Below, in pieces: positions 9,985 through 37,804 of a DNA stretch of 60,000 nt. This DNA is from Bolinopsis microptera (taxonomy: Eukaryota; Ctenophora; Tentaculata; Lobata; Bolinopsidae): positions 9,752,675 to 9,812,674 of the forward strand of contig NC_087078.1 of NCBI RefSeq assembly GCF_026151205.1, written 5' to 3'. Made by a program: the position numbers and the translations under genes. Numbering within the stretch: the first letter of the stretch is position 1; the number at the start of each line of letters is the position of its first letter. The notes beneath the pieces were generated by a model that did no database searches, was not told where the DNA came from, and worked only from the letters and a program-made list of their open reading frames with translations.

Positions 9985-10034
9985 TTTTTAACCCAACTCC
10001 ACTCAGTTTTATTTTGATACGCAACACCACCCCT

Positions 10035-16290: not shown

Positions 16291-18783
16291 TAGGACTATG
16301 AGTATGAGCGGATTACCCATGTCACATGTGACCCATTAGCCTCATTTTCACCTTGAATATTTAAAGAATTAGATCCCGATCAATACAAGTATAATCTTTA
16401 ATTGACAATAACAATTCATCGCAGCTCGGCCGAGCTCGGCGAGGCCTAGTACACAGTATGCAATATAGTACTAGTAGCGCATCTCGCCGTTTTGAATTTG
16501 TGGTTTCGAGAAGCATAATTGAGTGCGCGGCGCGGCCCAGTAACGCATTGCGCTACAAATATAATCACTATGGATTATACTTGCAACTTGGATATCATGG
16601 ACGTAACATAAGAAAGTTCTTTTTGAAAAGTGATGAGGCTATAAATTCGTTAGCCTCAATTAATTGTTCCTCGCATTTCAATCACTCCTAGTCCTACTGA
16701 GTCTAGTGAGTGAGCTAGGAGTTCGCCGAACATCTCATTTAAAGCTGCCGTATCGATTTTGTATACGCATAACAAAAATCAAATGCGCAACTAAAACAAA
16801 AATGAAATTATTAAATTTTTTCCAAAAAATGAACTTTTATGGGTGTTTCTAATAATGACCAGGGTCAAGGACAAGTTTAACCGTGAAAACAGGTTTTGGA
16901 AGGATAGAAATGGTCCAACACAAGAGCAAGCGTGCCAATAGTAAATCACATACCGATACACTTATATATATACCAGTATGTGATGAGAAATAGTTAAAAA
17001 TGATTAAGTATAAAAACAGGTTAGGCAAGAAATATTTGTTTAACTGAATGCTAAAGCTGCAGCAAGAATCGAATTATGTCTCATTTCATTTGTGAGATAG
17101 GGTCAGTGACTTCAACAAATTGTACTTTGAAGTAATTGTGTGGGATATATGACTATGAGTGCTTATAGAATGAAGTGTTTATCTATTTATAAATTATTAA
17201 ATTTCATATATGGCTCAAAATTGTAATTGTTTAATGAAAAAAACTGACTCGAAAGCTAATCTAAATTAAAAAAATGTATTTTCATGAATATCCCGTTCAC
17301 CCTGTCCCATTCTTTAGTCGAACTTCGGCACATGTCGAACTAGAGTTCAGGTAACATTATACCCTAGTTCGACAGTCAAAGTTCTCTCTTCGAATTAAAG
17401 TATGTCGAGTAGGTGTCGTCTCCCCACAACGCAGCTTTACTCTTAGGATCCGTAACCCTGCTAATCCCGTTATCAGTTATATTTACTGGAAATTCAAAAA
17501 CATTCGATCTAATTTCGCGTTCGATCTAATTTCTGCGTTCGATCTAATAGTAATTACATCTTGGTGATTTCTTAAATTAAAAAATGTTTAAAAGCCTGTT
17601 TCCCACATATAAACATAGTTCAAGTTTAAGTTCCTAGTTCCTACGAACAATCACAAATTCAGATATTTTTAAATATTCAATCTAGTTATACCGGAAATAG
17701 AATATCTGCTGTACGTGTAGTACTGCAGATTTAAAATTAATATCTAATCGACGTCTGGGAAGTGTTAAAGTCAGCCGGCGTGCTTTATGGGTTTCCAAAC
17801 TTTTTGAGAGTGAGACCATCTGAACATACTATATCGCGAAAAACATGACGACTTGTCTGGATTGTTGGTATGGCGTTCTTGGAGCGATCTGACCACTATA
17901 ATTATATATTTATATGTCAACAAGTAATTAACATGCAAACTTGAAGCACCGTGGGAAATAAGAGTAGCAAGATTTAGGAACCATGAATTGAAACAGATTA
18001 TGCACAACTAAAAACCACCAAAAGCAAAAAAGTAGTTATTACCTTTGTTTTGAAAAGAGTTCATAACAGCTTTCTCAAAACTGCAACAAAGTATCAATCA
18101 CCGTGACGATTATTTGGCAATGTGATCGATGGATGGAATTTAATTGACTTAGAAATAGACTAGATCTAAATTAGAGTTCACATCACACATGGCAACTCTG
18201 TATAATTACATCATTATTCACGAAGTCAACACGATCTCTAAGATTTGTCTGCTCAATTCGTGGATCCCATAAGGGACGGGAACCCTTTAAGGACTACCGG
18301 TGGACCATGAATTTCTGCATTTTAGTGTTTCGTTAGGACTAACTAGTAACTATACTAGGGAAATGCTGAACTAAAACATATCTTATCGGACGTTATTTGA
18401 CCGGACATTGCGTGAACAGAAATAATAAAATGAACACTCGAAGGCATTCGGTAAATATAATTCATTAAACTATACCTTGTCGGACCTTGTTTAAAGTTAA
18501 ACGGACATCAAATGAACGCTAGGGGCAGGGCATCCAGCGTTCAATTAATGTCCGTTCAAATAATCACTTAAATCACTAAAAATTGCTGTTACAAATACAA
18601 ATATTATTTTTATAATCATCACAATATTTTTTGTATATATAGTCCTAAAAATAAATACAAAATTAAATTTGGACGAATGATTTAGTGGGAGTGACACAAT
18701 TGCAGCGGTGCCAGTCCAAAAATAATACTTAATCACATTCAAAATATGTGTCTCGCTTTTTATAACCAGTCAACATACATATA
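16291..18783. other. AT-rich intergenic DNA with scattered MITE fragments
   Basis: No gene recognised. Short structures: an inverted pair around TAGGACTAGGA (about 16288 and 16690); TGTCGAACTAG/CTAGTTCGACA at about 17333-17375; repeated TTCGATCTAATTTC at 17502-17550 with TACATCTTGGTGA, a decayed relative of the fold-back at 41321-41504; and GTCCGTTCA-type words at 18380-18560. Confidence 0.5.
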
Positions 18784-19140
18784 CAGGGTGGGCCAAAAGT
18801 CAGTGTGCAAACGTTTGGTCTTATACCTCCGCCGTGTTTTATATTTGAGAGCTGTTGCTTTGCAGATGGCATACTGTACCTTCTTGTTCGAGGATTCCGT
18901 CACCAAAATTTGAAAATTCGAATATTTTAGACCACGCCCATCCAATATTAAAACGCCTATATTGTTTTCTCTAAACTTGTTGGACGCCTAATTGGACGGC
19001 AAAACGGATTAGAAATCAAGCATTTTGTGTATGAGTATCTCGTTAACAAAATTGACTGGGTGATTATCAATTATGTGACACCGTGACACGACACCTTAAT
19101 TGGACAGCTCCTAAACGATTCCCGTATTGTTTAGCGGGGT

Positions 19141-20416
19141 TTAGGGCCTGTCATGATATCATGGATCGCTTAGGTTCCACCAGGATCTGATAGTCCTCAT
19201 AATTCTGCGGCCTCTATGTATCGTTATCTCGCACAACTCCGTAGTCCGTAAGACCCTTGTAAGTTTGGCATGTGAAAATTTGCAGCCTTCCAGACATTTA
19301 TTGGGTTAACGAGGTGTCGTACGTCACCTCAAGATCGGGTGACAGGGGGCTGACCAGGCAAGAACCCAATTGATTGGATCTGAGGTCACGTGATTATGAG
19401 CCTGAGGGCACGTGACTGTGACGTCACCAGAGCTTGTTCTCCGTTTCCCGCTAATTGGACCAGGTGAGCTTGCATGCTTGTGAAATGTGAATGTGGGTTT
19501 AAGTACAGCTGTACTGCAGTTTATATCTACCTTACAAGACATTTTTGTGGCGGACCAATTTGCGACGACCGAAATTTTGGCGGTCCGAAAATATGGCGAA
19601 ATTGAACAAAAACCGTCACATTTCGGACGTCACAGAAAATAAGGGTATTTTTCATCATTTTGTTTTCTGACACAAAGGAAATTCAAAATTTTCTAAAAAT
19701 CGGTAAAATCATGTTGAAACAAAATGAAACTTATAAATCGATTTCTTCATCTTCCTCTAAGGGGTCCGGCTCGACTCTTTCAGTTTCACTTATTGAGTTT
19801 GGTATTAAATTGTTTATCTTCACTTAGTCTCTTATAAGACGTTTATGTTAGCACATAAATATAATTTATTGTAAACAGTAAATTTAAAACGTATTACTTG
19901 ACATTAAATTCATCATGGAATATTGTGTTTATTTGTCCCACCATCATATCACTAACTTTTCAAGAACAAAATGAATCGATGAAGCCACAATTATTGGAAT
20001 AAGCTAAAAATAATGCGACGGATTCTATTACGACGACCGAAATTTTGGCGGTCCGAAAATATGGCGAAATTTCGGGAAAACCGTCGCATTTCGTACGTTA
20101 TGAAAAAGTCTTGTAAGGTAATTACTCCCTATTATAGTGTATGTACTAAGAGCATCAACTTGCGGGTGAACATTTTATGTCTCAAAACCCAACATATTAT
20201 ACATCATTGGAAAGGTCTCATTGAGTAGAGTCGTTTGGTACCAAGTTTTGGGCAAATGGCTGTTCCTAGCGAAAGTTATAGCCCGTCAAAGTTCCAAAAA
20301 TGACCATTTAAAAAATGGGGCGGGGCATCGTGTTCTTAAAGTTTTTGACGAATTTTTTTTACAGCATATTGTTTATCACATTTTTTTACACAAGATTTGC
20401 TGTATGCCGTAATTTT
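19141..20416 (+). repeat. Left terminal inverted repeat of F2, interrupted by a MITE
   Basis: 19141-19529 and 20119-20416 are TIR; 19530-20118 is a later insertion. The inner end at about 20416 follows GCTGTATGCCGTAATTTT, where similarity to 30918 stops. An identical 63-codon chance ORF lies in both arms (20221-20412 and 30922-31113), a sign of high arm identity. Confidence 0.8.
19530..20118. mobile_element. 589-bp MITE with TA duplication and internal direct repeats
   Basis: Ends CCTTACAAGAC (19530-19540) and GTCTTGTAAGG (20108-20118) are a perfect 11-bp inverted pair flanked by TA. The matching TIR arm near 33660-33670 has the empty site ATCTAATTAC (on its complement) with a single TA. Inside, two direct repeats of about 68 bp (about 19565-19632 and 20030-20098) share CGACGACCGAAATTTTGGCG. 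Confidence 0.9.
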
Positions 20417-20867
20417 TAATCCATTATTACAGTCACAATCAATTTATTTTGTCATCAGAGTTTGAATTACGTAAAGAGACAATCTGTATTCCGCATGGTT
20501 CCCGGCGCGCTAGTTTGTCTACAAATTATTAGTTCGCGCGTTACAATATCAGATTTACCCAGTAACGCACATGTTCGCACGTTAGTCAGTGTAATAGGTA
20601 AGCTCCTCCCTAGCATCAGCTGTAGGAGTAACAGCAGTACAGATGTCAAACTGAAGGTTAAGTTACATGTCTAATGGAAGAGAGTATTTCTCTGTTATTT
20701 TTGTGTTTTCAAAACAAAAATAAACGGAGCATTTGATCGAAATTTATTTCAATTAAAATATAGATTAACAGTCATTTAGTCAAGCTAAAAAATCAGACTC
20801 TAAATCGAATCGAGAGATCCTTATACAGTTTAAAATTTAAAATTGAAAATGTCTATTTTACTAGCAG
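20417..20867. other. F2 interior beside the left TIR
   Basis: AT-rich non-coding sequence between the TIR and the stop codon of the minus-strand F2 gene. Nothing else recognised. Confidence 0.35.
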
Positions 20868-22299
20868 TCAATATAATATTTGTTTCACACAACAAGACTT
20901 GCTGAATAGCATAGTTGCAGTCAGAGGATCCATGACGGAAGCTCGCTGAGTGTCTCCGTATAACTTCAAACTCATATAATGAGTTGTACTGGTCTCGTGC
21001 TCAGCAGCCCTCCTTCTATACAATGGATCCTGGATGGAAAGTAAATGAGAAACTATTGAATCGTTCATTAAATTGCTGGTCAGAACAAACGGATGTATTT
21101 TAGGTGATACTGTTTATGGAAAGTTTTGCGGTCGTGTTGCAAATAAGATTTGAACATCATTTGTTATGTTTCATATCATCTACTCCTTACAGGAGTGATG
21201 GAAGCATATTACAACATTACAATATTATTCAAATGTAACTTACCATTTTTAGAACATCAGGTCTTTTCCGATGATTGTAATAGATTGAGTTTGATATACT
21301 CAAAATATCAAAAGACTCCACGTCAGACACCCCGTAACACAAGTAGCTGACCGTCTTTCGAAGATCTACTGGAGCAGAAACTTGTTCAATGATGTCCTCG
21401 GAAAACGATCCAGCGAATCTACCGCCTGATGTGCAGTTAACAATCGAGTTCCGCACAAGTTGGAGGTCGACATGAATAGAGTTACTGCCCTGCTCCTTCT
21501 CAAAGGCTTGCTTCATGATACCATGAAGGTTTTGTTTTGAACAGATCATGACATAACGCCACGACCCATCATGTTCAATTACAATTTCTGTTCCTATATG
21601 CGTCTTCACGGAAGACAAAAATGATATTTCATTGTGAAAAAGTTCTTCGTCCTTGTATCTATCTGATAGAGTTGATGATACAAGTTCATTAAACAAACTA
21701 AAGAGCTGAGTGCGGGAATAAATTCCTCCTTTTTCTATCTTAGCAAGCAATGCTCTCATCAGCCTCACTCGTCGTAAGTGACATGGACGTTTTGGAGTGC
21801 TTGGAAGGTCCTCATCTTCGATAAGCCGTTTCCCTGGTGTCCATTGGCTGGCTTCACTTGAGGGGGTATTGGCCGAGTCACTTTCTTCTACTTCATCTTC
21901 TGTAGCAACAATTGGATTGCCTACTGCTGCTAAATCATTGCTGTTTTCTAGGGTATCCTGAAGGGCTTGGACTTGCTGGATAACTTCTTCCTCGTTTAAT
22001 TGAGAAGCTGCCGCTATGGGGGCATAAGCGGTAGCTGTCTCGTTTTTCTTCTGGTAACGTTTTTTGCATGCTTGGTGAAAGGATGCTTTGATTTCGTTCA
22101 AAAAGTTGGCTATCGACTCGTGGTCGTCACGTAAACCGCTCCATCCTATCTCATCAAGGTCTATGTCACTCCCGTGGTTCACGTGATGAGATAGGAGGTT
22201 CTTTGCTATTGTAGAATTACCAGCATCATTTCCGACAATAAGCGGTTTACGTCCTGTCGTCTTACAAATTGGACATATCTTTCGAATCCTAATGTCCAT
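20868..22299 (-). CDS. Uncharacterised protein gene carried by F2 (two exons)
   Basis: Exon 1 is 22299-21244, ending ATG|GTAAGT. Exon 2 is 21029-20868, preceded by the acceptor TTTACTTTCCATCCAG. Both junctions are phase 0, giving 405 residues. The N-terminus has a CPIC motif and TGRKPLIVGND. The middle is Glu/Ser-rich (about 120-165) with a basic PGKRL...PKRP patch that could be a nuclear signal. The C-terminal half (about 170-390) looks like folded alpha/beta sequence: RVRLMRALLAKIEKGG, VRNSIVNCTSGGRFAGSFSED, DILSISNSIYYNHRKRP, then across the splice RRRAAEHETSTTHYMSLKLY. I recall a similar block in multicopy hypothetical proteins of marine invertebrates, where it continues longer; this one may be C-terminally truncated. 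No transposase catalytic motif seen. Function unknown. Confidence 0.6.
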
Positions 22300-23670
22300 C
22301 AAAAATGCTGAAAAGTAGGTCTTAAAAGGATGTGAAAATTCACGAAAGAAAAAATCATGTGGTCATTATATTACAACATAATCATCATTGATCAATTAAC
22401 ATTGATTTGCTTATACTCGTGTTTGTCAAAATTTTAGAAACTTCACTATCTTATGTTACTATAGGTCATGAAATCAAGAATATGCTCTAAAACGATGGCG
22501 CCAAACCTATGTAAAACAAAAATGACGAAATTATCAAGCAATTTGTTTATCTCGTTGAGATGATTCTAACCATTGTAATGACCAAGATGACCACTTATTT
22601 CCCATCAAAAGACCGAAGCTGAGATATCTTGTATGAAGTGTGTCAATCGATGCTCGTGAGAGTGTAAAAATGGGGTCTGAACTGAAAACACAACAACCCG
22701 AAGTCTGAAGACTCTAAAACCATGATCATTTAAAATTAAATACACAAGACGAAAATTTAGCTCTTATCAGAAGCAGAGATATCTTAAAACAAGTGAGATA
22801 AAGGGTGTGGTCATACATATAACTTTAGTCTAAGGGTCACGAAATCCTCTCCGAACCTCAGCGTGGTGTGGCCTGGTTGGCAGTAACGGGTGGTGTGCTC
22901 TCTTGTTGAGTACAAAGGTTGGGACTTGCCAACTCAAAGTTACCATAGGAACCAGGAAGTCGACACTAACAGCTACCAAGCATCAGGAAATTTCTCTTTC
23001 AGATATCAGGATACCAGATAGTACACGCACGAATGACGACACGTTAGACAAAGATACCTAGCTCTAAGAGCTATTAAATCACCAAGAAATTCTCCTTCGG
23101 CTTTTAGGTCCCAACGAAGTCACCCACCACAGAGCTACGGATTCCAATTCGCTCATTCTGACTACAAAGACACACTGATAATTAGTAGTCTTTGCACTCC
23201 CTCAAGTAACCACTTTTCAGGTCTTTTTCAGTTAAGACAGGTAATGCATAAGGGCTGACACACGCTAGACACAGGCTCGTGATAAGACAGAGTTAGGGAT
23301 TTCAAATCTCTCACTCTGACTATGAGGAGTGAGGACACACTGATAGCGAGAATCCTTAGCACTTCTCCCTCCAGTAACCATATTCCAGGTCATCTCAGCT
23401 AGACAGCTAAGGGCTCATCTTGAGGCCATCACATTTAACCTAGGATTAGGGGACCGGGTTAGCTTTGCCACACTCTTCATTGAAGTGTGACAAAACGCTC
23501 TACAATCATCTAATAGCAGCAGAGTTCGACTGACACCATTACTGGTTCTAATCAGTTTATACAGCAGAAGTTCTTAATGTTCGAAAACAGTTCATCTTGG
23601 ACATCCTCCAGAGATGCTCTATCATAGCCTGTCACATTACACGGGGAACCCTTAGATCTACAGTACCCTG
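22300..23670. other. F2 interior, non-coding, with a diverged ~145-bp duplication
   Basis: 22300-22850 shows nothing recognised. 22856-23660 is more GC-rich; two related segments (about 23149-23235 and 23295-23400) share CTCATTCTGACTA/CTCACTCTGACTA, GACACACTGATA, CTCCCTC and AGTAACCA...TTCAGGTC. It may belong to the same old retroelement as the RNase H relic beyond the copia insertion. Confidence 0.4.
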
Positions 23671-23860
23671 TGTTTTACTGGTTAGACGGTGCAATGATAG
23701 GCAGTAATTGTAGTGTAAAAACAGCCCCACCACTCCTATGGAGATAGGTGGTTAGTCATCTTAATAAATAAATAAATGAATATAAATACAAATACAATCC
23801 ATAATAGAAATAGAAACACTGCAGCGATGTGGCCCTCGCAGCTCAGTGAGAATACTAACA
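23671..23860 (-). repeat. copia 3' LTR
   Basis: Same 190 bp as 29056-29245, starting TGTTAG and ending AACA on the minus strand, next to the CCCTG duplication. Confidence 0.95.
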
Positions 23861-24214
23861 TCTTACCCCAATTTCTAAAACAGATTAAAACTTTTCCAAA
23901 AAACTATCATCATCACTTTTCCAAAAACTATCATCACATTCTCAATTCTTTCTTCCTTCCTTTTTCAAAAATCATAATAATACTGTTCATTTCAATTCTT
24001 TCAATTTCTTACACTGTACTATTCATAGTCTGTATCCCGTTCTCACAACGGCCATAGATAGCAGGAGAAAGTAAGTAGTCTGTCACGTTGAGAGCAAGGT
24101 GAGAGTAGGTACTAGCCAAGAGGAGAGCCACACTACCCCAGGAGATCACAAGATCCAAAACCAAAACAGAGATGCACAGGTACCAATTCCTTGTGAAACC
24201 CTGTAAATATTGTT

Positions 24215-24216
<2 letters not shown>

Positions 24217-24304
<88 letters not shown>
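24217..24304. repeat. 88-nt T homopolymer (A on the copia sense strand)
   Basis: Uninterrupted T run between the copia stop codon and the 3' LTR. On the sense strand it is an internal poly(A) about 130 nt past the stop, unusual for an LTR element. Confidence 0.95.
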
Positions 24305-24305
<1 letters not shown>

Positions 24306-24439
24306 TTAAAGGTTAATTATACATTAAAGTCATCGTCACTCGTAATTATAAACAAATTATAAACAATTAAAAAAAACAAATGCACACTGTTTCATTGGCG
24401 TCAAAACCTACCACTAATTAAAAAACCATTAAATACCAA

Positions 24440-27400
24440 TTAAATTGAAACAATTTCTCCTTTATTTAGCATCACTAAAAGTTTATCACTGTTACTGGTT
24501 ATTTTAGTAAAGGGATCCGCAAGCTGTTTAGCTCCCTCTTCCCATTTTACTTCAATCTCATCTTTCTGCTGCATTTGTCTAATGGTAGCCAGATCAACGT
24601 TCAACCTCTTTTCTTCAACATGTTTACTTGATCGCAAAGCTTTATCTAATGATTGATTGTCTGTAAAGCCTATTACTGGAACCATTGACTTATCAAATTG
24701 ATCGAAGTAGATCTCACTTATCAGATGAGAGACATACACTCCATGATCTAATGTATCTTTGAATGCCAAAGTCTCTGCGCTCAAAGTGCTGCTTACAACT
24801 CGTTTACATTTATGACTTCCCCATGATAACGGTGATATCTTTCCTTCCTCATTCATTAGGACTATTAGATGACCTTTTCCTGTGGACACCTTGTCACCGA
24901 GGTTCATAGATGATGCATCAGAGTAGATCACAATCTTTAGTGTAGAAATGTCTCCTAACTTTGAGAACTTTGTGTTGTAACAACCGTTGAGCTCTTTCAT
25001 CCGTCTGAATGCTTTATTGGCCTTCTTAACAGCTTCTACTGGATCTACACTCTTTGTTACATTTAAATCATACGTCATGAATGACAAATCTGGGCGTGAT
25101 TGAGCAGCTACCCAGTTCAACTGACCACATATTGTTCTAAGCTTCCTGTCAGTCGACAGATGATATATCTCATGTTCTTTATCATTGATGACATCTGCTA
25201 GATCTCGGATATATTCATGTTGGTTCACTAGGATACCGTCTTCTGTCTGCTCAACTGATAGACCAATGTAATTGAACTTTGATTTGCAGATTTTACCAGC
25301 TTCAAAGTTTGATGTCAGTTCTTTTACAACTCTATCAAAGAATGACTTTGTACCAGCTACTAAGAAATCATCAACGTGAAGCACAAGTATTCCTTCGAAT
25401 CCAGTACTAGTTCTCCATATGAACAAAGCAGGATCTAACACTGATTGAGTACAACCAAGGTTGATAAGAAGTCCCTTCACACTGATAAACCAAGCTCTTG
25501 CCGCATCATTTAAACCATACACTGTCTTTCTCAATCTCCACAAATAACCTTTTTCTACATGAGCTTCCTTGGGTGGTATGACATAAACATTTCTTTCAAT
25601 TTTATTTCCTTGCAGAAAGGCAGCTTTGATATCAATCGTTGTTAGTTGCCACTGCTGGTTTGCAGCTATAGCAAGTACAACCTTGAGAGTGTTTTTGAAT
25701 ACTGTAGGTGACTCCACTTCAATCGACTGATTTTGCTCTTGAAATCCACGGACTACTAACCGGGCTTTAACTCCAAGTTCAGTGCTGGGTTTTTCTGTTA
25801 TTACCCAAGTTGTTGTAATGACATTCTGATCACAATCCTTGACTTCATCATATACTTCTCTCTGCTTCCAGTTAGTCAATTCAATAACTTTAGCCTTAAT
25901 AACCACATCTTCATTGTGTCTGGAAGTGGGAATTGTCACAACATTACATTCTTCGTGATCGTCTCCAGGTTCTGCATCAATAGCAGCATCAGCTTTGTAC
26001 ATAGCCGTCTTTGTACAATCTATCAGCTTTTCTTCACCTTGGGTTGTCATAAGTTTCACCCAGTGATCTTTTCTGCCAAGCCGTTTTCCTTTTTGAGTCA
26101 CGGTACATGTCTCCCATTCATTTTCTTTTCCTTCTTTAACAAGTTTCACCGTATCTCCGACCGAAACATCGTTTTTCTGAAGTCTAGTTTCCAAATACTT
26201 AATCTTGAGTTGTTGTTTTTGTTCATTGGAAATTACCTTAGAGTCTATTTCAAGTATTGGAGAGGAGCTCATAATTTCTTGTCCTGTTGGTATTTCCTCT
26301 GTTTCCACTGGCACTTGAAATTGAATAGGCATTTCTTCTATGTTTTCAGCAGCTTCATCAAACTGATCATCGTTAAGATTGACTGCTTCATCATGTTGGC
26401 TATTCTCTGTTTCCAAGATATCATCATTGTTTTGGTTGTGCTCGTCACTCACTATATATTCTCGTTTCACAATTCTACAGCTTGCTGCTTTGATAAGCAG
26501 TCCTCCATGCCTCAGTATAAGAGTCTTTCCTTCCTTGCCGACTATCTTGGCAGGTCCTTTCCAGCGTTCAATATTAGGTCTTTTGTAGAATACAACATCA
26601 CCAATCATAAAGTCTTGGTTGATATCTCGTAAGGGTCTTTTCAAAGCTCTTTTAACTCTTTCTGAATTCTCTGCCTCTAGATATGCTTTTCTGCTTAGAT
26701 ACATTGCATTAAGATTCCTTTGAATGTCGCTTGATAATGATTCATCTGCTCCTTCATTAGCAGGTAGCAAGTTGTAAGATACCCCAGGAAAGTTTGGATT
26801 CTGACCTGTCACTATCTGCACTGGAGAAAATCCACTGACATTGTACAGTGTGTTCTTGGCATTGATTGACCATGCAAGTGCTATCTTCAATGGAAACCCG
26901 TCATACATCATTTTAAGCACTGATTTGTCAACCACAGCATGGTTTCTTTCACATAAGCCATTTGACCAAGGTGAGTAGGCACTGGTAACACAAATTTCAA
27001 AGTTGAGTTGTTCACTGAGATCATTAAGTTCATTGTTTGCGAATTCTCCTCCATTGTCCACTAATATTTTTCCTGGAGGTCCCATACCTGCTGCAATCCA
27101 TTCCATAGTAAAGGCTTTTATTACTGTCTCTGGCTTTTTGTTGGAAATCACCCTAGCTTTGCAGAATCTTGAGAACATATCAACAATGTAAATCACATAA
27201 CCATTGATTCCAGTAAATTGTTTCAAATCAAGAGCTACTACCTCATTGAACTTCGTTGCCATAGGTAATCCAACGACTGGTGTGGAGGGTGTTCTTTTAT
27301 ATCTCGCACAGGCATCACATTCTTTTAGCACTTGATCAATCACCTTGTTCACATTTTCACCTTGTACGTTTGCATTTTTGGTAATCTTTTTCAGATTCTC

Positions 27401-29056
27401 TGCTGAACAATGACCCAGCTGCTTATGAAGTTTGGTAATACTGCTGACTGTGTCATCTAGATTGACTAGATTACATTGCTCTTCTATAGCAACTTCATTA
27501 TAATCCCATAGAGATATGCCAATCAGACCTGACTCGGTTGTTATAACAGGGATCACCTCTCCATCTACTTCAATCGTACTTGTACCAAGGTCTAATTTAA
27601 ACCCTCGCTTTGCCATCTCTTCTTTGGAGATCAGAAATGGAATATTCCTTTGCACTATATCAGCCCAAAGGAATGTCTTCTTTCCGGCAATTATACAAGG
27701 TACTCTCACCGCATCTGCGGCAGCAATAGGGTCACTACCTCCAAAACTGTATTTTGAACGGGCGTCTGACACTTTCAGGAGTGCTTTGTCCTCTTCTGTC
27801 AGGTTATCTATGTACTCACGAATCCATTCTTCGCCAACTACATTCTTCGAGCAAGCAGAGTCTAAAAGTGCTACCTGATGGCATTCTGCTGTCTCCATCT
27901 CTGAAATCTCTCTACATTCATTAACATTTTCTGATCTATCTGAATGAGGACAATCTTTAATCAAATGCATTACTGATTCGCATCTATTACATCTCAACCG
28001 GGGGTTAAACTTCTGAGTTGCCCTAGAGTCATCAGCTGTCTTATATGTCTTAGAGTACTCTTTTTTGAAACTTCTAGAGTTATCTCTTCTTCGATCATTA
28101 TCTGAATATCTCTTTGGCTTGTATTCTCCTTTGTCATTATCCCTTTTGTCACGATTAAATCTTGAGATGTGATTGTTGTATGATCTGTTATTATCTGTTC
28201 TTCTCCAAGCCTTTCCTCTATTTCTCCAATTGGTGTAGTAGGCTTCCTCTTCTTCAGACATGTTATCAGGATCTGATGATGAACGTGTAGATTCTGACGA
28301 TTCAGAAAAAAGTCTCTCACCATTGAATACTGGCTCTTCTTTGATGGGCGTATCACATTGTGGTCTCTTTTCAACCTCACGGATTCCTTCACCAAAGTAT
28401 TTCTTGATTGAATTCATCATATCTTCAACAACAGACTCTGTTTTAACTAACTCAACTCCAGTCATTACCAGCTTTTTGTCATTTGCTGATAAACCGGATC
28501 TTTCTAGCATGTGTAATGCTAACACAGTTCCAGGAAGAGTTATCTTGCTAATTTTCAAGTTGGTGTTGGCTTGATCAAAGTTATTGAGAAAGCTTGACAT
28601 ATCTTGACTGTCCTTTCTCCTAAGATTGATAAAATCCGACCAGGATTTCATCATCTTACTGGTATCATCTTTCCTGTATGTTCTATCTAATAGCTTCATG
28701 ATGTTTTGTACTCCTTCCCCGTCAAGAACATCGATGTCTTTGTTTTTTACTGCTGAGTTGAGCTTTGATACGATATTATGATCAGTGTGTTGAGATACTA
28801 GGTTGAACAAGGCATACCCTTGCTCTGCGGGGTCTACTTTTCTGACTGCACATAATTTGTCCCACATCTCAACTTGTAGTCTCCATTCCTCATAACTCAT
28901 AGATGCTTTCCATTGCGGTGGGGCTGTAAGGCGGGCTGCTGGCTGTTGGTACTGCACTTGTATTGGCTCTGGTTGCAGTACTGCTCCTTGAACATTTGAT
29001 GATGTTGCTGTATCAGGTGGTGGATTACTTTCTTTTTCATCTTCACTGTTTACCAT
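24440..29056 (-). CDS. copia Gag-Pol polyprotein, 1538 aa
   Basis: One frame from ATG to stop. Approximate residues: gag/UBN2-like region 45-230; CCHC knuckle CNRCESVMHLIKDC at 350; aspartic protease LLDSACSKNVVG at 398 (DSA where many relatives have DTG or DSG); GAG-pre-integrase HKQLGHCSAENLKK at 545 with CDACARYK; integrase DDE acidic residues in ALDLKQF (607), VDNGGEF (667) and LCERN (702); copia-type RT from TTWVITEK (1082) with IDIKAAFLQG and HVDDF (1227); RNase H VIYSDASS (1379), SAETLA and ADPFTK (1515). The order protease-integrase-RT-RNase H defines Ty1/copia. The A of the start codon is the last base of the 5' LTR, leaving no spacer. No frameshift or stop is present, so the copy may be competent. 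Confidence 0.95.
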   Translation of the reverse strand: MVNSEDEKESNPPPDTATSSNVQGAVLQPEPIQVQYQQPAARLTAPPQWKASMSYEEWRLQVEMWDKLCAVRKVDPAEQGYALFNLVSQHTDHNIVSKLNSAVKNKDIDVLDGEGVQNIMKLLDRTYRKDDTSKMMKSWSDFINLRRKDSQDMSSFLNNFDQANTNLKISKITLPGTVLALHMLERSGLSANDKKLVMTGVELVKTESVVEDMMNSIKKYFGEGIREVEKRPQCDTPIKEEPVFNGERLFSESSESTRSSSDPDNMSEEEEAYYTNWRNRGKAWRRTDNNRSYNNHISRFNRDKRDNDKGEYKPKRYSDNDRRRDNSRSFKKEYSKTYKTADDSRATQKFNPRLRCNRCESVMHLIKDCPHSDRSENVNECREISEMETAECHQVALLDSACSKNVVGEEWIREYIDNLTEEDKALLKVSDARSKYSFGGSDPIAAADAVRVPCIIAGKKTFLWADIVQRNIPFLISKEEMAKRGFKLDLGTSTIEVDGEVIPVITTESGLIGISLWDYNEVAIEEQCNLVNLDDTVSSITKLHKQLGHCSAENLKKITKNANVQGENVNKVIDQVLKECDACARYKRTPSTPVVGLPMATKFNEVVALDLKQFTGINGYVIYIVDMFSRFCKARVISNKKPETVIKAFTMEWIAAGMGPPGKILVDNGGEFANNELNDLSEQLNFEICVTSAYSPWSNGLCERNHAVVDKSVLKMMYDGFPLKIALAWSINAKNTLYNVSGFSPVQIVTGQNPNFPGVSYNLLPANEGADESLSSDIQRNLNAMYLSRKAYLEAENSERVKRALKRPLRDINQDFMIGDVVFYKRPNIERWKGPAKIVGKEGKTLILRHGGLLIKAASCRIVKREYIVSDEHNQNNDDILETENSQHDEAVNLNDDQFDEAAENIEEMPIQFQVPVETEEIPTGQEIMSSSPILEIDSKVISNEQKQQLKIKYLETRLQKNDVSVGDTVKLVKEGKENEWETCTVTQKGKRLGRKDHWVKLMTTQGEEKLIDCTKTAMYKADAAIDAEPGDDHEECNVVTIPTSRHNEDVVIKAKVIELTNWKQREVYDEVKDCDQNVITTTWVITEKPSTELGVKARLVVRGFQEQNQSIEVESPTVFKNTLKVVLAIAANQQWQLTTIDIKAAFLQGNKIERNVYVIPPKEAHVEKGYLWRLRKTVYGLNDAARAWFISVKGLLINLGCTQSVLDPALFIWRTSTGFEGILVLHVDDFLVAGTKSFFDRVVKELTSNFEAGKICKSKFNYIGLSVEQTEDGILVNQHEYIRDLADVINDKEHEIYHLSTDRKLRTICGQLNWVAAQSRPDLSFMTYDLNVTKSVDPVEAVKKANKAFRRMKELNGCYNTKFSKLGDISTLKIVIYSDASSMNLGDKVSTGKGHLIVLMNEEGKISPLSWGSHKCKRVVSSTLSAETLAFKDTLDHGVYVSHLISEIYFDQFDKSMVPVIGFTDNQSLDKALRSSKHVEEKRLNVDLATIRQMQQKDEIEVKWEEGAKQLADPFTKITSNSDKLLVMLNKGEIVSI

Positions 29057-29245
29057 GTTTTACTGGTTAGACGGTGCAATGATAGGCAGTAATTGTAGTG
29101 TAAAAACAGCCCCACCACTCCTATGGAGATAGGTGGTTAGTCATCTTAATAAATAAATAAATGAATATAAATACAAATACAATCCATAATAGAAATAGAA
29201 ACACTGCAGCGATGTGGCCCTCGCAGCTCAGTGAGAATACTAACA
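29056..29245 (-). repeat. copia 5' LTR
   Basis: Identical to 23671-23860. It overlaps the first base of the Gag-Pol start codon and is followed outward by the CCCTG target duplication (29246-29250). Confidence 0.95.
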
Positions 29246-29581
29246 CCCTGGTGGACAGCATAGCTCACTAAAGCATAATCGGACCAGGAAAAAACAACAA
29301 TGCAATGCCTCAGGGATGCAAATATTAGGACATCAAAATTTTAACGAATGCATTACTCAAACTTTGGATTCAATTTGTTAGCCCAACGTTAGATGGTAAC
29401 AATACAGGACAGACAATCCTCCTTTACTTTCATTGAGAAAATAGTACCCACTATTTGCATTACACATGGCAAGTATCTGGACTAATGATAACTTAGGATC
29501 CCCATCAATCATTAATTCCTCTCAGATTCCCAGGCTGCATTTAAAGCGCCTAACAGCACCAGTTTTAACTCCAGGTTCGTT

Positions 29582-29842
29582 CAGGGACGTAGCCAGGATT
29601 TTTCTTTGGGGGGGGGGGGGCCTGTCGGCGAGCCAACGCGTCCATTCCAGCTGCGCAGCGAGCAAAGCGAGCAAGCTGTGGCAGAGGTCTGGGGGCACAG
29701 GGCCCAGCGGGGCCCAGGGGCGGAGCCACTTGGCGGGGGCTAGGGTGGCGCAGGCCCCGGAAAATTTTGCAAAATAGATTTTGACATTTCCTACGGTCTA
29801 GGGGACACTAGCCCCCCCCCCCCCCCCCTGTCTACGTGCCTG
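29582..29842. mobile_element. 261-bp hAT-type MITE with 8-bp target duplication
   Basis: Ends CAGGGACGTAG and CTACGTGCCTG are inverted (one mismatch). The direct repeat GGTTCGTT is at 29574-29581 and 29843-29850. An 8-bp duplication and CAGG terminus fit hAT. A G run sits near the left end and a C run near the right, so the element can fold on itself. The interior is GC-rich, unlike its neighbourhood. Confidence 0.9.
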
Positions 29843-29850
29843 GGTTCGTT

Positions 29851-30392
29851 CTGAACATCTCAGACCAACTCAATTCAATAGGTATTCACATCGAGTAGAA
29901 CTTGGATGTTCCAGGGCATGAAGGAGTAACGGTAAAGAACTAGCGGACGAATTAGCAAGGGATGATCAATCCAACAACATCCCCATAGGACCAGAACCCT
30001 TTCTCCCAATTAGGCCAAACTCAGTGACAAAGGAAAATCACACTTGAGATGTTCCTTCACAAACATAAATACAGGTATTTTAATTTTTCTGGAACTCACA
30101 TCAGATGGCTGCCATGGCCACTGTCAGGATAGATAACAGCCCACTAGTTTAACAACGTCAACTTCGAGACACAAGATTGTGGACACTTTCAGGAGAAGCA
30201 GAAACATCCCAGCACCTCCTCTGCAAGGGCATCCATATCATGACACTCAGAATGAGGATAATTGGAAAACCACTAAGGACTACGGAGGATCTTAACTGTT
30301 CTAACCAATCTTTCCCCTTTAGCAAAGTCACCCTGAACTCTACTGTGGTGAGTAGAGTGTTACACTTTGTAACTGTGTTTAGCTTTTCTTAG
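29851..30392 (+). pseudogene. Non-LTR retrotransposon RNase H and C-terminal relic
   Basis: DVPGHEGVT (about 29905-29930), then after a frameshift ELADELARD (about 29937-29963), correspond to the V/W-PGH-x-G-x-x-GNE-x-AD-x-LA motif of RNase H in I/Jockey-type elements. Further on, TLSGEAETSQHLLCKG (about 30180-30230) resembles the zinc-binding CGxEEETxxHLL segment that follows RNase H. Stops and frameshifts make it a fossil. It lies inside F2 and may be an older insertion; its 5' part may be left of the copia element. Confidence 0.6.
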
Positions 30393-30917
30393 TATTATAG
30401 CTTTCAGTTCATGTTTCTAGTAAGATAAGAACTGGTATTGATACTTCTAATTGCATTTATTCTATAATGAATTGCATTACACATTATATATGTTTTTAGA
30501 TAGATACCAATCATCGTGATTCCATTGCATACATCAGACTAGAGCAATAAACATTAACAACAGTAAATTCAACCATATCTTCAAATTTGTGGAACAGTCG
30601 ACAATACTGGATAGTATAGGGAAAACCCTGGATTCTTCCTTTAAGTGTATACATACTATTACTATCCAGAACTAAGAATATTTGCATTATACTTTCAAAC
30701 CAATTTCACAGTGTGATCATTTAAACTTCATGTTGTGGACGTCAGCTGAATTTGATGCAACCGAAAATGCGACATGAGCATGTAAATTTGATATGAGAAA
30801 AAAAATTGCGCAACAAAAAATTTGGTTAAATCTCCTTATTGCGATTTCTAACTGCGCGGCGTAGCGCGTACTTTTAAATCCAAATAAAAATTATTTTTGA
30901 TTAAAATATCAAAAAAT
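30393..30917. other. F2 interior, right side
   Basis: AT-rich; no gene or repeat recognised before the right TIR begins at about 30918. Confidence 0.35.
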
Positions 30918-31911
30918 AAAATTACGGCATACAGCAAATCTTGTGTAAAAAAATGTGATAAACAATATGCTGTAAAAAAAATTCGTCAAAAACTTTAAGA
31001 ACACGATGCCCCGCCCCATTTTTTAAATGGTCATTTTTGGAACTTTGACGGGCTATAACTTTCGCTAGGAACAGCCATTTGCCCAAAACTTGGTACCAAA
31101 CGACTCTACTCAATGAGACCTTTCCAATGATGTATAATATGTTGGGTTTTGAGACATAAAATGTTCACCCGCAAGTTGATGCTCTTAGTACATACACTAT
31201 TATAGAAACCGTAAATTTATTTTCTGACAGAAGCTAGAAATTTACCAAAATATCGACTTTGTTATAAACTTATTTTGATGACCATTCCTAACCTAAAATT
31301 GCACGAGAAATCGATTCAACTTGGTTTCAGAGCTCAACAGATAACTGTCCAACAGGGGTCGAATTCACAAAAATAACGTAAACCATTGATTCAAAGCAAC
31401 CGCCGCTCCTCAAGGATAAAAGAAAATCGTGATGATTTAGGTTAATAATCGCGGCGCCGCGACAAGTCAAACTAGGCAAAATCGCGGTGAATTTGCGGCG
31501 AAAGATAATGTATTTGCAGAGCTAAGTTAGATGTCATAAATTCGTTAACTTATAGCTTGTTAGTATAGATAGATTAGGGAGTGACAGGCTCGTTAGGCAA
31601 AACAATAGCATCTATGTTAATAATCTTAATATAAGTGTTAAGATCTAAACATACTCTTCTTCGTGATTTTGTTACACGAATAATGAATTAGGGATGAACT
31701 GGTTCATTATAGGATTAGGGTAATGAAAATTACTAGTTGGTTTGTGTGTAGATAGTAGGTCTGTGCGGCTTCTAGTGATAATAGAAAATTATTATAATTA
31801 TTACGTAAGAATTATTATAAAAATTATGTTTATATAGAAACAAGGAGAGTAACTTACATATTAAGGCACTTTTCTTGTACCTATCGAGAATGACGGTAAT
31901 CGTACTGTTAT

Positions 31912-32029
31912 GTAGTGCGACACGTACTGTAGTGCGACACGTACTCTAGTGCGAAGTCCGACAAAAACACCCTCTGTCGCACTAGGGTACGTGTCGCAAT
32001 ACGGTCCAGGTAGCGTACTCTACTGCGAC
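31912..32029. repeat. GTCGCACTA/TAGTGCGAC motif cluster, left of the FLYWCH gene
   Basis: About six copies of a TAGTGCGACACGTAC-like word in both orientations, with CGGTCCAGGTAGCGTACTCTACTGCGAC at the inner end split by single-base changes. A matching cluster lies at 32838-33039. Confidence 0.85.
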
Positions 32030-32332
32030 AAAATATCCTGACTTATTTCCAAGTTCAGGTCACATCCTATCCTTCTTATGGACCATTAAGTGATTCGTCG
32101 GGTCGGTTCACGTCACTTATTTCGAAGTGATCTTGCGAATACGATTCGTCGGTTCACATTACGTGTTTCGAAGTGATCCACTGATCACAATTCCTTCGGG
32201 TCAGTTCAAGCGACGTATGCAGTGTGTAATCCACCGGGTAACTCGTAAGCAGCATATGATCCTCATTCCTATCACACGCATCGTATGAAGGTATATCTCC
32301 GATTTGGATAACAAGTTCATATGCTTGGGCCA

Positions 32333-32340
32333 TATATAAG
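32333..32340 (+). promoter_or_regulatory. TATA box of the FLYWCH gene
   Basis: TATATAAG 39 bp upstream of the ATG, preceded by about 300 bp with repeated CGATTCGTCGGxTCAxxT and TTTCGAAGTGATC words. Position and sequence fit an RNA polymerase II TATA box with a short leader; not tested. Confidence 0.4.
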
Positions 32341-32378
32341 GTCACGATGATTCTACCAAAGCATCGAACAACATCAAC

Positions 32379-32810
32379 ATGTCTTCTTCAATCACCTTCA
32401 TTCCTGGACGCACTACTTGTTCAAGAAACGTTATCCACGACGGATACCGCTACTGCCTGGATAAGAAGCGCGACGACAGGACCTACTGGCGATGTACTGA
32501 GAAAATCTGCTCCGGACGTCTCAGTCTGATGAACGACACTACTGTGACCAGTACGAAGACCCATTCCCACCCTCCTACTCCTGCGCAGCTCTTCACCAAG
32601 AGAGGATGCTTCTTCCACCACAAGCAAGCACTTTGGAGGAAGATGCAGCAACATGACCTAGTCCCGGAATACAACGCAGAGAACTCAGCAGTACGGAAGT
32701 ACTTTCAGATGATCGGTGCCATTGCCTTCGTGGACCTTGGAGACGTACTGGGTACCTGGACGCAGCTGAAAGCAACCCTTCCCCCGGAGATGGATTCCTT
32801 TGCTGACTAA
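32379..32810 (+). CDS. FLYWCH zinc-finger protein of the MULE
   Basis: 143 residues, single exon. Residues about 6-65 form a FLYWCH domain: FIPGRTTCSRNV, HDGYRYCLDKKRDD, YWRC, ICSGRL, then a THSHPP histidine pair, giving the Cys2His2 zinc ligands. FLYWCH domains bind DNA and are common N-terminal domains of MULE transposases. The rest (AFVDLGDVLGTWTQLKATLP, then a stop) resembles the segment that usually follows in MULE-associated proteins but ends before any catalytic core. It could be a truncated transposase or a stand-alone DNA-binding accessory protein. The frame is free of damage although the element lacks a transposase. Confidence 0.75.
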   Translation: MSSSITFIPGRTTCSRNVIHDGYRYCLDKKRDDRTYWRCTEKICSGRLSLMNDTTVTSTKTHSHPPTPAQLFTKRGCFFHHKQALWRKMQQHDLVPEYNAENSAVRKYFQMIGAIAFVDLGDVLGTWTQLKATLPPEMDSFAD

Positions 32811-32837
32811 ATTTTTATTGAATGTGTAAAGTGTTTT

Positions 32838-33039
32838 GTCGCACTTTAGTTCGTGTCGCACAACAGTCCAGGTAGCGCACTGTAGTGCGACAGTGTCGGC
32901 CTTGAAAATTCTCTGTCGCACTAGGGTACGTGTCGCACTACGATCCAGGTAGCGTACTCTACTGCGACAGTGTCGATCTTGGAGGTTTCGCACTAGGGTA
33001 CATGTCGCACTAGAGTACGTGTCGCACTACAGTACGTGA
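32838..33039. repeat. GTCGCACTA motif cluster, right of the FLYWCH gene
   Basis: About eight copies of GTGTCGCACTA(G/C)xGTACGTGTCG-like words, including two blocks of CCAGGTAGCG(T/C)ACT(C/G)TA(C/G)TGCGACAGTGTCG. It pairs with the left cluster partly as direct and partly as inverted repeats, so the gene sits between two arrays of one motif. Confidence 0.85.
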
Positions 33040-34071
33040 ACCGAGAATGACTCGGACCGAAAATTTTCTAAATCGAAATTATTTTCAAAGTTTTTCTGGA
33101 AACTACTTTTTCGGTTCGTACCTACATTCGAAAGGCTGTGGATGTGATAAGTTCAATATAATTATAAAGAACATGATATTTTGCCCTCGGATTTAAAGGA
33201 GAATGCGCAAATTTGGTCCTCAGAGAACTGGAATGATCGCAATTTGTCGCGAAGATCTGTTTGTCTCGGCAAACGTCAAAAATCGCGATTTGTCGCAGGG
33301 AATGGGAAAAATCGCGATTCTGCACGTGCCGCGATTTCCTTTTGACCTTGCCGATCCTGTCTCTTGATTGCTTATGATGATCAGGACCACATCACACATG
33401 ACGTATCATCACGACGATTATTGGTCACTCGAAATCGACCCGTTATGTTATCTGTTACTAATTAATCAACAGGATCATAATGTTGATTGTATCGATAAAA
33501 CATGGATTTTAAGGCATAAGGAAGCATTATTGAGCTCTGAAACCAAGTTGAATCGATTTCTCGTGCAATTTTAGGTTGGGAATGTTAATCAAAATAAGTT
33601 TATAACAATGACGATATTTTGGTAAATTTACGGTTTCTTATTCTTATTCTATAACAGGGAGTAATTAGATATAAACTACAGTACAGCTGTACTTAAACCC
33701 ACATTCACAAGCATGCAAGCTCACCTGGTCCAATTAGCGGGAAACGGAGTCTGGTGACGTCACAGTCACGTGCCCTCAGGCTCATAATCACGTGACCTCA
33801 GACCCAATCAATTGGGTTCTGGCCTGGTCAGCCCCCTGTCACCCGATCTTGAGGTGACGTACGACACCTCGTTATCCCCATTCAATGTCTGAAAGGCTAC
33901 AAATTTGAAATTTTCACATGCCAAACTCACAAGGGTCTTACGGAGTTGTGCGAGATGACGATACATAAAGGCCGCAGAATTATGAGGACTACCAGATCCT
34001 GGTGTAAGCGATTTATGATATCATGACAGGCCCTATAGGGGTGGTTAAAGGGGTCACCTAATCACGTGATT

Positions 34072-35079: not shown

Positions 35080-35190
35080 GCCAAAAGGGGAGGAGCGCCA
35101 ACAGGCAACGTTACGTGCCACTGTTTCTAGGTCAATCAAATTCTACTGCTGTGGCACACACTAGATTGCGACATGTGATCAGAATATGGA

Positions 35191-35774
35191 GTAGACTCAG
35201 TATAGTAGACTCAGTATAGTAGACTCAGTATAGTAGACTCAGTATAGTAGACTCAGTATAGTAGACTCAGTATAGTAGACTCAGTATAGTAGACTCAGTA
35301 TAGTAGACTCAGTATAGTAGACTCAGTATAGTAGACTCAGTATAGTAGACTCAGTATAGTAGACTCAGTATAGTAGACTCAGTATAGTAGACTCAGTATA
35401 GTAGACTCAGTATAGTAGACTCAGTATAGTAGACTCAGTATAGTAGACTCAGTATAGTAGACTCAGTATAGTAGACTCAGTATAGTAGACTCAGTATAGT
35501 AGACTCAGTATAGTAGACTCAGTATAGTAGACTCAGTATAGTAGACTCAGTATAGTAGACTCAGTATAGTAGACTCAGTATAGTAGACTCAGTATAGTAG
35601 ACTCAGTATAGTAGACTCAGTATAGTAGACTCAGTATAGTAGACTCAGTATAGTAGACTCAGTATAGTAGACTCAGTATAGTAGACTCAGTATAGTAGAC
35701 TCAGTATAGTAGACTCAGTATAGTAGACTCAGTATAGTAGACTCAGTATAGTAGACTCAGTATAGTAGACTCAG
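35191..35774. repeat. 14-bp satellite GTAGACTCAGTATA, 41.7 copies
   Basis: 584 bp of tandem GTAGACTCAGTATA with no sequence variation that I can see. Complete homogeneity points to very recent expansion or a high correction rate. The copy number could be an assembly minimum. Confidence 0.97.
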
Positions 35775-36113
35775 TAGCTCTATACTTATTTTGCGCTAGT
35801 CTAACCATATTACTGCCAGTACCGTATTACTGATTACTTTTTCCCCGAAAAAAACTTTATTCGATGATTAATTCAGAACTCAGAAGTAGTAGAGTATTAC
35901 TAATGATTAATGCAGTTATATTCAATAATATGATAATCCCAAGTATATATTACACAAATGTAGTACATTTGAAATGTACATACACAGATATCAACGTTTT
36001 AAAAAAAGTAGAAAACACAGCAGACAGGAAATACTTATAATTTTGACAATGTTGTTCAACTGATCGTTTTAATATACGTAAATTTGTTAGGTATCTCAAT
36101 TCTGATGAAACTA
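35775..36113. other. AT-rich spacer
   Basis: No gene or repeat recognised between the 14-bp satellite and the F1 MITE. Confidence 0.4.
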
Positions 36114-36859
36114 CAGGGTGTGCCAAAAGTCAGTGGGCATACGTTGGCCTTAATAGCTCAGTCACTGAGTGCCCAATTGAAATAATTCTTTCTGGTATGA
36201 CTTACTACCATCACTGGTTCGAGGAATTTGTCAAATGGAAAAATATTCGAGTTCATTTGTTTCAAATGAAGGTTCATTTTTGCATTTATTTGATAGTTTG
36301 GATAGTCGGATCGAGCTAAATTTTATTGAATTGTGTTTGGCCATTCGAATTACGTTTGTCCTGAAAAAATTAGCTTCTCAGATAACCGAGATATGAAGCA
36401 TAACGAGTTTATTCATTACCTAATCACGTGATTAGGTGACCCCGTTAACCACCCCGTTAAACATTATGGGAATTGTTAAGGGTGCCCAATTAAGGTGTCG
36501 TGTCAGGGTGTCACATAATCACCCAGTCAATTTTGTTAACGAGATACAGAAAATTCTTGATAACTTCGTCATTTCTAATCCGTTTTGCCTCATGTTTCAG
36601 ATCATATGCAACATTCAATAATCTACCGTCTCTGAAAAAATTAGGCCTTCAGTATGTTAAGAGAAAACAATATAAGTGTTTTAATATTAAATGGGCGTGG
36701 TCTAAAATATTCAAATTTTGACAACGGAATCCTCGAACCAGTAAGTACAGTAATAACAGTATGCCATCTGCAAAGCAACAGCTCTCAAATATTTATATAA
36801 AACACGGCGGAACCCACTATAAAACCCAACGTATGCCCACTGACTTTTGGCCCACCCTG
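36114..36859 (+). mobile_element. F1 MITE copy 2, uninterrupted (746 bp)
   Basis: TIRs CAGGGTGTGCCAAAAGTCAG and CTGACTTTTGGCCCACCCTG extend to about 35 bp with two mismatches and are flanked by TA (36112-36113, 36860-36861). Contains the palindromic CCTAATCACGTGATTAGG. It is the reference that shows where F2 and the 86-bp MITE entered copy 1. No transposase ORF. Confidence 0.9.
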
Positions 36860-36884
36860 TATATAAAAATATTAATAATTCAAT

Positions 36885-37804
36885 ACATCTGTACACGTTT
36901 TTAAAAAGCATGCAACCCATTATAAGTATTCAGTAATGTTTCTGAGTTCTGTTGAAAATATAAAAATAGTCAAATGTCTGGTGATTGTCTCAGGAGCGTC
37001 TCTAAGACTTAATTTTCAGGCAGTAATACACATAAGCTAGCAATCCCTCCATAAAAGCTTCCCCCACCAGTGGATATGTTAGAAACTCCATCTTAGGATC
37101 CCTTTTCTTGCACTCTCTTGTCATAACTTTATACCCTGGTATAATGAACTTTGTCGCGTCCTCGAACTCCACCAGATCCAGATCTGCTTTCTTAAAATGA
37201 TCCAGAATTTCTCATTTGTGAGGAGCGAGTGGGGCATTTTGAGGTGCCTGTTTGCTTCCTTGCAGAGCTTCCAGTCTACCTTCCTGACAAAATCCCAAAT
37301 AAATATTTTGGTGTCCTTGTCACAGTAACCAACGAGTTCAGTCAGGAACGCTTCCAGGTCCCCATGTGCGTAAAGCATAGCCCCCAGAATAATGATGTGA
37401 GTGTAGGTCTGCTCCTTAATCTCAGGAGCAGCATCCAGGATGGAGCTGGTCAGGAACTTTCCTTGATGGCTGACTCCGTGGGACTTAGCCAGATCCTCAC
37501 ACTCCTCGATATACTTCGGGTTGATATCAGTCCCTACAAAGTGACACCCCGTGCGTTTAGCAATTCCCACGGTGTACATCCCTTTCCCACATCCCAAGTC
37601 CAGGATCCTGGAGTCTGGTCCTATCCCCTGGTTTGAGATGATATACTCTATCATATCCTCGTTTGCCTTTTTCAAGTCCGGGATGGTATCGACATCTGCA
37701 TCAGGTGATATTCTGCCGTAGTTGTAAAACCCAGGTGCTATATCGTTCCACAGATCGTTCATCAGCTTGTTAGAGTAATTAACTTTAACAGGATAAGTCG
37801 ACAT
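36885..37804 (-). pseudogene. Class I SAM-dependent methyltransferase, copy 3, frameshifted
   Basis: Coding similarity is 37804-37002; 36885-37001 is the shared 3' flank. The first about 190 codons match copy 2 (ILDLGCGKGMYTVGIAKRTG, FVGTDINPKYIEECE), then a single-base change near 37208-37215 shifts the frame and gives a premature stop at 37121. In the other frame the family C-terminus continues unbroken (GEAFMEGLLAYVYYCLKIKS, stop at 37002-37004). One lesion with everything else conserved means a very young pseudogene or a sequencing error. Motif I and the SAM-binding Asp are intact; the lost C-terminal third holds blocks conserved in both intact copies. Confidence 0.8.

Follow-up and report, generated by a model that had tools for sequence, protein, structure and literature searches.

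Two nested transposons in Bolinopsis microptera and a DNA transposon family that probably belongs to the Academ superfamily

We analysed a stretch of 60,000 nucleotides from the ctenophore Bolinopsis microptera (G000:C7:9752675-9812674, hereafter the window; positions are counted from its first letter). A reading made from the sequence alone had seen there a single transposon, "F2", with long terminal inverted repeats (TIRs) and a gene for an uncharacterised protein. We found that "F2" is two transposons, one of which (INNER) is nested within the left TIR of the other (OUTER). A gene with 8 exons and a 1467-aa product, hereafter gene A, was cut by a deletion in the window, and the 405-aa "protein" corresponds to its exon 1 and the greater part of its exon 2. 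With high probability, gene A belongs to the INNER family of cut-and-paste DNA transposons, most likely in the AcademX lineage of the Academ superfamily, which was reportedly first described by Kapitonov and Jurka.

Results

Nested organization of the locus

The long inverted-repeat arms of the window lie at about 19.14-20.42 kb versus 30.92-34.04 kb, and pair as 19175-19529 with 33666-34007 and 20129-20416 with 30918-31205. The inverted repeats are thus real, as the sequence-only reading had it, but its 0.68-kb TIR proved to be a fusion of two TIRs, that of OUTER, represented by its initial 0.41 kb, and that of INNER. In the window the OUTER TIR continues past the INNER insertion for about 0.13 kb (arm 31229-31337, pairing with 33530-33638). 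In other OUTER copies the sequence past window position 19529 resumes, some 18 bp later, at window position 31206 onwards. Given this continuity, the region 31206-33650 was rejected as a further insertion; it is the OUTER element's own interior.

The site that INNER entered was found empty elsewhere. A query made of the flanks joined across 20135/31199 was searched in loci L002-L028 and produced 39 spans. Loci L002-L008 duplicate places of L009-L015 and were dropped from the count. The empty site was then seen in 30 spans covering 20 of the 20 loci L009-L028, with the exact sequence CTATTATAGAAACC in 18 spans and small changes in 12. These empty sites in OUTER copies, together with the continuity of OUTER, replace the single element with two nested ones; INNER jumped into the left TIR of OUTER and duplicated TTA. 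The two arms of the INNER TIR in the window show 0 differences over 282 bp, and the copy is therefore young. The Copia element inserted in it (Table 1) is recent too.

INNER family

Searches of the genome (264.65 Mb) with the first 22 bases of INNER, allowing at most 2 mismatches, found 72 occurrences (38 forward, 34 reverse); the same terminus read backwards, used as a control, had 0 matches. The termini form 28 convergent pairs of 6,229-19,251 bp, and 16 termini are unpaired. The transposase gene (gene A) was present in 6 of the 28 pairs and an open reading frame (ORF) resembling Ulp1-type peptidases, described below, in 8; no pair had both, and 14 had neither.

All seven elements of the family that were read at both ends have an exact 3-bp target site duplication (TSD) directly outside TAG...CTA: TGT in L029, TTA in L030, TAA in L031, ATA in L032, TAA in L033, AAC in the C2 element and TTA in the window. 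For the window copy a 9-bp TSD had also been considered, as CTATTATAG stands on both sides. It was rejected because the six other elements have 3 bp only, and the 9-bp match arises from the TTA duplication adjoining the TAG/CTA ends. The GGGGT duplication proposed earlier is not a TSD either, since its two copies lie at unequal distances from the ends; the TSD of OUTER is 9 bp long and that of INNER is TTA.

OUTER family

The OUTER element is a high-copy family. With the OUTER TIR as a query (19141-19500) we obtained 40 scored matches among 703 candidates and fetched 20 loci around matches. An exact 9-bp TSD was observed in 13 of the 17 copies with both ends, the exceptions being L009, L014, L017 and L023; the 9-bp duplication of L020 says little, as its flank is itself a tandem repeat. 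At the ends of the window copy the 9-mers AGCGGGGTT and TAGGGGTGG do not match. Mutator-like elements have TSDs of 8-10 bp. The duplications of the 13 OUTER copies fall in this range, with the window copy mismatched, and the 3 bp of INNER falls outside it.

The gene region of the window (20417-24190) was compared with the OUTER loci at E 1e-8, pieces longer than 60 bp being kept. It was present in 0 of the 20 fetched loci, of which L010 and L021 show one OUTER end only. Locus L010 matched the INNER TIR over 173 bp (76%) and contained 72 bp from the right part of INNER, and L019 had two pieces of 73 and 79 bp.

Structure and copies of gene A

The frame noted earlier at 20868-22299 (minus strand, two exons, 405 aa, CPIC at the N-terminus) was recovered as described, but it is an incomplete gene whose last 14 amino acids are spurious. 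In the longer relative L031, the sequence from which these 14 residues are read is located about 2.9 kb farther along; the deletion that joined it to the exon 2 remnant occurred at a TGC microhomology.

A genome search with exon 1 (12 rows) identified 8 loci. Exon 1 is open, at 93-100% identity, in five copies (the window, C13, C2, C4 and C5); the remaining loci are a broken copy on C9, a fragment on C11 and a homologue of 28% identity on C4. Six of the eight, namely the five open copies and the C9 pseudogene, are inside INNER TIR pairs, which jointly make up 0.11% of the genome, and the C11 fragment and the distant C4 homologue are outside them. The earlier proposal to look for the gene together with its TIRs thus failed for the TTAGGGCCTG TIRs for which it was made (0 of 20 loci), but succeeded for the INNER TIRs (6 of 8). 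Because the gene co-occurs with the INNER TIRs, its suggested role as the catalytic protein of a transposon is supported for the INNER element, and the suggested alternative, gene capture, is unlikely.

The L031 element on C13 has exons 1-5. The copies on C2, C4 and C5 have all eight exons, encode 1467 aa with no stop, and contain seven GT..AG introns each. The corresponding full-length elements are 17,721 bp (C2), 14,932 bp (C4) and 15,064 bp (C5) long, the left ends of the last two being known by position only. In the 17.7-kb C2 element no frame longer than 145 aa was listed besides gene A. All three elements (L034/L035, L038, L039) have tandem repeats 3' of the gene, with a unit of about 197 bp that shows up in stepped self-like matches between copies.

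We observed that the gene downstream of exon 1 is under purifying selection. The ratio of nonsynonymous to synonymous substitution rates (dN/dS) between C2 and C4/C5 was 0.29-0.31 for the whole gene, with 0.08-0.10 for exons 2-7 and 0.15-0.17 for exon 8.

Encoded protein

No significant match to exon 1 was found in Pfam, NCBIfam or the PDB sequences, in agreement with the initial remark that no known transposase motif is present. Structure prediction for the window exon 1 without an alignment was uninformative, with a mean predicted local distance difference test (pLDDT) score of 37.7. The full 1467-aa protein had no above-threshold Pfam match, a PDB sequence search with exon 8 gave nothing useful, and searches of viral contigs with exons 1 and 8 confirmed no relatives of gene A. 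Within the genome, exon 8 had 65 match rows, some of them in relatives at 23-31% identity whose open frames are 1,438-1,569 aa long. Matches to DUF6589 below the cut-off were seen in the middle of gene A (E 0.0055) and in the relative L040 (E 0.00016); no mention of DUF6589 was found in the literature searched. The CXC domain of Pfam scored above the cut-off in the relative L042 and below it in L041.

In the N-terminal half, the motifs DNxD, (S/C)DE and GGFH are common to gene A and one relative, and a DxxxE in exon 8 is invariant among five members. Chosen by eye, these motifs are plausible candidates for a DDE core.

The C-terminal halves of five members, four of them at 21-41% identity to gene A, were aligned (numbering follows the first row). 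They have in common 12 all-acidic columns, invariant D365, E498, D500, D524, D526 and D590, and eight invariant cysteines. The profile of this alignment was compared by hhalign with six archaeal FEN1 proteins, column-shuffled FEN profiles serving as the control. The best alignment pairs six acids from the all-acidic columns (D365-D27, D408-D80, E498-E154, D524-D173, D526-D175 and D590-D224), and their FEN1 partners are invariant in archaeal FEN1. In 100 column shuffles, 85 had no such pair, 13 had one and 2 had two. Reversed and rotated FEN profiles reached a score of 15.9 versus 18.2. Only the register of the acids stands out in this comparison, the overall score being non-significant; an XPG/FEN-like nuclease, with its putative active-site acids in register, is a probable identity of the C-terminal half. 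The best PDB sequence matches of the domain profile were GEN1 (E 0.29, on a GCDY motif), MARF1 (E 0.39) and two unrelated chains, none of them significant. GEN1 is an XPG-family nuclease, and the AcademX nuclease is XPG-like; in the literature searched, no paper pairing Academ with XPG was found.

Sister elements with a Ulp1-like ORF

Over the first 3.1 kb, interrupted in L030 by an insertion, and over the final 416 bp, the elements L030 and L033 match L031. In both, a 315-aa ORF in the same direction replaces the transposase gene; there are 4 differences between its two copies in 948 bases. The ORF weakly matches Ulp1-type peptidases (PF02902 with E 0.03, below the cut-off; OtDUB with E 0.0066) and has H, D, Q and DCG in this order.

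A genome search with this ORF (42 rows) found it or its remains in 8 TIR pairs, one of these copies being degenerate (C11) and one in pieces (C12), and another copy, C6:4099593, is 8.6 kb away from a terminus that has no partner. Outside TIR pairs we found C6:9698825, C6:9704379, C2:2449529, C2:37934-38866 and relatives at 59%. Two of these (C6:9698825-9699685, minus strand, and C6:9704379-9705317, plus strand) are diverging copies 4.7 kb apart without INNER TIRs, one of them in a 653-aa frame. This pair on C6 is possibly the source of the ORF. The simplest reading is that the ORF was captured by a deletion derivative, which then multiplied.

Other features of the window

The coordinates of the features are collected in Table 1. 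The whole nest is surrounded by an inverted-repeat pair, 18779-18993 and 36639-36864, with ACAGGGTGGGCCAAAAGTCAGTG ends and 85-91% alike, which may represent a large element of greater age or a pair of mariner-like copies. Three related methyltransferase-like ORFs lie at 5246-6070, 13932-14753 and 37121-37879; the third ends in a different frame, and Pfam was run on the second only. We take the 766-aa frame at 9948-12248 to resemble a reverse transcriptase of the Penelope type with a GIY-YIG-like end after it; it had nothing significant in Pfam. About 42 perfect copies of the 14-bp unit AGTAGACTCAGTAT occupy 35190-35776.

Table 1. Features of the nested elements and of the sister elements (window positions unless a locus is given; LTR, long terminal repeat)
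Feature	Position	Strand	Remarks
OUTER element	19142..34035	.	ends TAGGGCCTG...CAGGCCCTA; broken by the INNER element and a small insertion
Small insertion within OUTER left TIR	19531..20117	.	ends CTTACAAGAC...GTCTTGTAAG
INNER TSD, left	20132..20134	.	TTA, 3 bp
INNER element	20135..31199	.	internally deleted, gene-bearing; 11,065 bp including the Copia insertion
INNER left TIR	20135..20416	+	282 bp, starts TAGTGTATGTACTAAG
Spurious codons	20868..20912	-	14 codons and stop from 3' sequence past the junction; exons 3-8 lost
Exon 2 remnant	20913..21029	-	39 of 41 codons, ending at the deletion junction
Exon 1 of transposase gene	21244..22299	-	352 aa, CPIC at the N-terminus
Copia LTR retrotransposon inside INNER	23671..29245	-	identical 190-bp LTRs, TSD CCCTG
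Copia ORF	24440..29059	-	single 1539-aa frame; integrase and RVT_2 domains (Pfam)
INNER right TIR	30918..31199	-	282 bp
INNER TSD, right	31200..31202	.	TTA, 3 bp
OUTER interior and inner part of OUTER TIR	31206..33650	.	parts adjoin the TIR in other OUTER copies
FLYWCH zinc-finger fragment in OUTER	32340..32810	+	PF04500, E 1.5e-8
Ulp1-like ORF	L030:6466-7413; L033:3279-4226		

Discussion

The observations fit the following scheme. Full-length INNER elements of about 15-18 kb with 282-bp TIRs encode a single 1467-aa protein from eight exons, with an N-terminal zinc-finger region, a probable DDE core midway, a probable XPG/FEN-like nuclease domain nearer the C-terminus and, at the end, a tail rich in cysteine (CXC-like). 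This transposase would bind the TIRs and catalyse excision and insertion. The task of its nuclease half is probably to process DNA ends, branched or with flaps, in the course of excision or of gap repair. The window copy lost exons 3-8 by a deletion via microhomology and is therefore non-autonomous; presumably mobilized in trans, it inserted into a high-copy element from a different family, within the left TIR.

Several results weigh against parts of this scheme. As regards the nuclease, the score of the FEN profile was not significant (E 0.21 for the C-terminal half, 0.14 for the domain) and was equalled by 6 of 100 shuffles, or by 4 of 60 for the domain alone. None of the six matches from a genome search with Pfam XPG_I lies at gene A, and in all five members the nuclease-like domain is without a match to any Pfam family. 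As regards the DDE core, its residues were selected by eye from two sequences, and the identity of the catalytic Glu is in doubt. As regards selection, exon 1 is weakly constrained (dN/dS of 0.59-0.63, C2 vs C4/C5), and C4 vs C5 gave 0.76 on 15 changes (4 synonymous, 11 other). As regards the link between gene and termini, the 14 TIR pairs with neither known gene have to be accounted for, as do the broken pieces found with exon 8 outside TIR pairs at C2:1427800-1437873 (71-90% identity) and C9:9105350 (57%).

These last points would also be expected if a host gene were carried by a transposon that another transposase mobilised: gene A was not shown in 22 of the 28 TIR pairs, and the protein of the window has no transposase motif. 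We consider such a capture very unlikely, as all three full-length open genes were found between INNER TIRs, no open copy of at least 93% identity was found outside them, exons 2-8 are under purifying selection, and the C2 element had no other long frame listed. That one element with TTAGGGCCTG ends and 0.68-kb TIRs carries the gene is suggested by the adjacency of both inverted-repeat blocks in the window, yet its probability is close to nil in view of the empty sites in 20 of 20 OUTER loci (L009-L028), the pairing of the INNER TIR at 28 places and the lack of the gene in all 20 fetched OUTER loci.

The place of the INNER family among known transposons leaves more room for doubt. It may be a separate superfamily whose likeness to AcademX goes no further than the TSD length and the presence of an XPG-like nuclease. 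The absence of above-threshold Pfam matches for the full protein and the nuclease-like domain, with DUF6589 matching only weakly, speaks for this, and so does the size of 15-18 kb, which exceeds the mean length of 5,565 bp given for 100 curated Academ elements of bivalves in PMC10294476. Size, however, is no superfamily trait; the many relatives in the genome (1,438-1,569 aa, 23-31% identity) are as for an old superfamily; and a 3-bp TSD with a nuclease-type C-terminal half fits AcademX as outlined in PMC10045372. We therefore rate a separate superfamily as unlikely. The undescribed transposon group that had been proposed from the window is likewise little favoured, since both the TSD and the XPG/FEN-like half are in line with Academ, a superfamily already known. 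Slightly less likely still is a two-component system in a lineage separate from known Academ. In it, elements with the same TIRs and 3-kb leader would carry either the 1467-aa transposase-nuclease or, at the same position and orientation, the Ulp1-like (SUMO/ubiquitin-type) protease, but never the two together. The protease elements would be helpers, shielding or activating the transposase or the repair proteins it works with, so that two kinds of copies divide the two tasks.

With an Academ-like INNER family as the preferred reading, an anonymous gene has become a full transposon, known by its ends, TSDs and empty sites and by three intact copies of its gene, and this opens the hypotheses of a DDE core and a flap nuclease to direct testing. 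INNER is probably a new family of a known kind rather than of an unknown kind. What makes it interesting is the existence of intact relatives and the alternation of transposase and protease rather than the window copy. The split of transposase and Ulp1-like protease across elements with the same ends provides a natural case in which to study the reason why proteases of this type are found on several kinds of DNA transposons. The locus also shows that nested insertions can disguise two families as one unknown element.

Among known systems, Mutator-like elements resemble OUTER in the 9-bp TSD, the long TIRs and the FLYWCH fragment, although no transposase core was spotted by eye among the OUTER copies viewed. 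The sister elements of the INNER family recall Ginger1 and Mutator elements, for which Ulp1 domains are recorded in PMC2836005, in having a Ulp1-type cysteine protease on a DNA transposon. According to the same paper, the Ulp1 domain of Ginger1 is a C-terminal part of the transposase, whereas in the INNER family the ORF and the transposase are on separate elements with the same TIRs. Within Academ, PMC10045372 ties the TSD to the encoded enzyme: AcademX has a 3- or 4-bp TSD and a nuclease, and AcademH a 9- or 10-bp TSD and a helicase (AcademH is from Kojima 2020, as cited in PMC10045372 and PMC10799480). AcademH would share a superfamily with INNER if the Academ assignment holds, but it differs in both traits: the INNER TSD is 3 bp, and no helicase was found in the Pfam scan of the 1467-aa protein. 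AcademX is like INNER in the 3-bp TSD (seven of seven INNER elements), in the TIRs, which bound gene A at six of eight exon-1 loci including the three full-length genes, and in a large protein with a probable XPG/FEN-like half. Set apart from AcademX, the INNER family has elements of about 15-18 kb, an 8-exon gene, 282-bp TIRs and a Ulp1-like ORF in sister elements.

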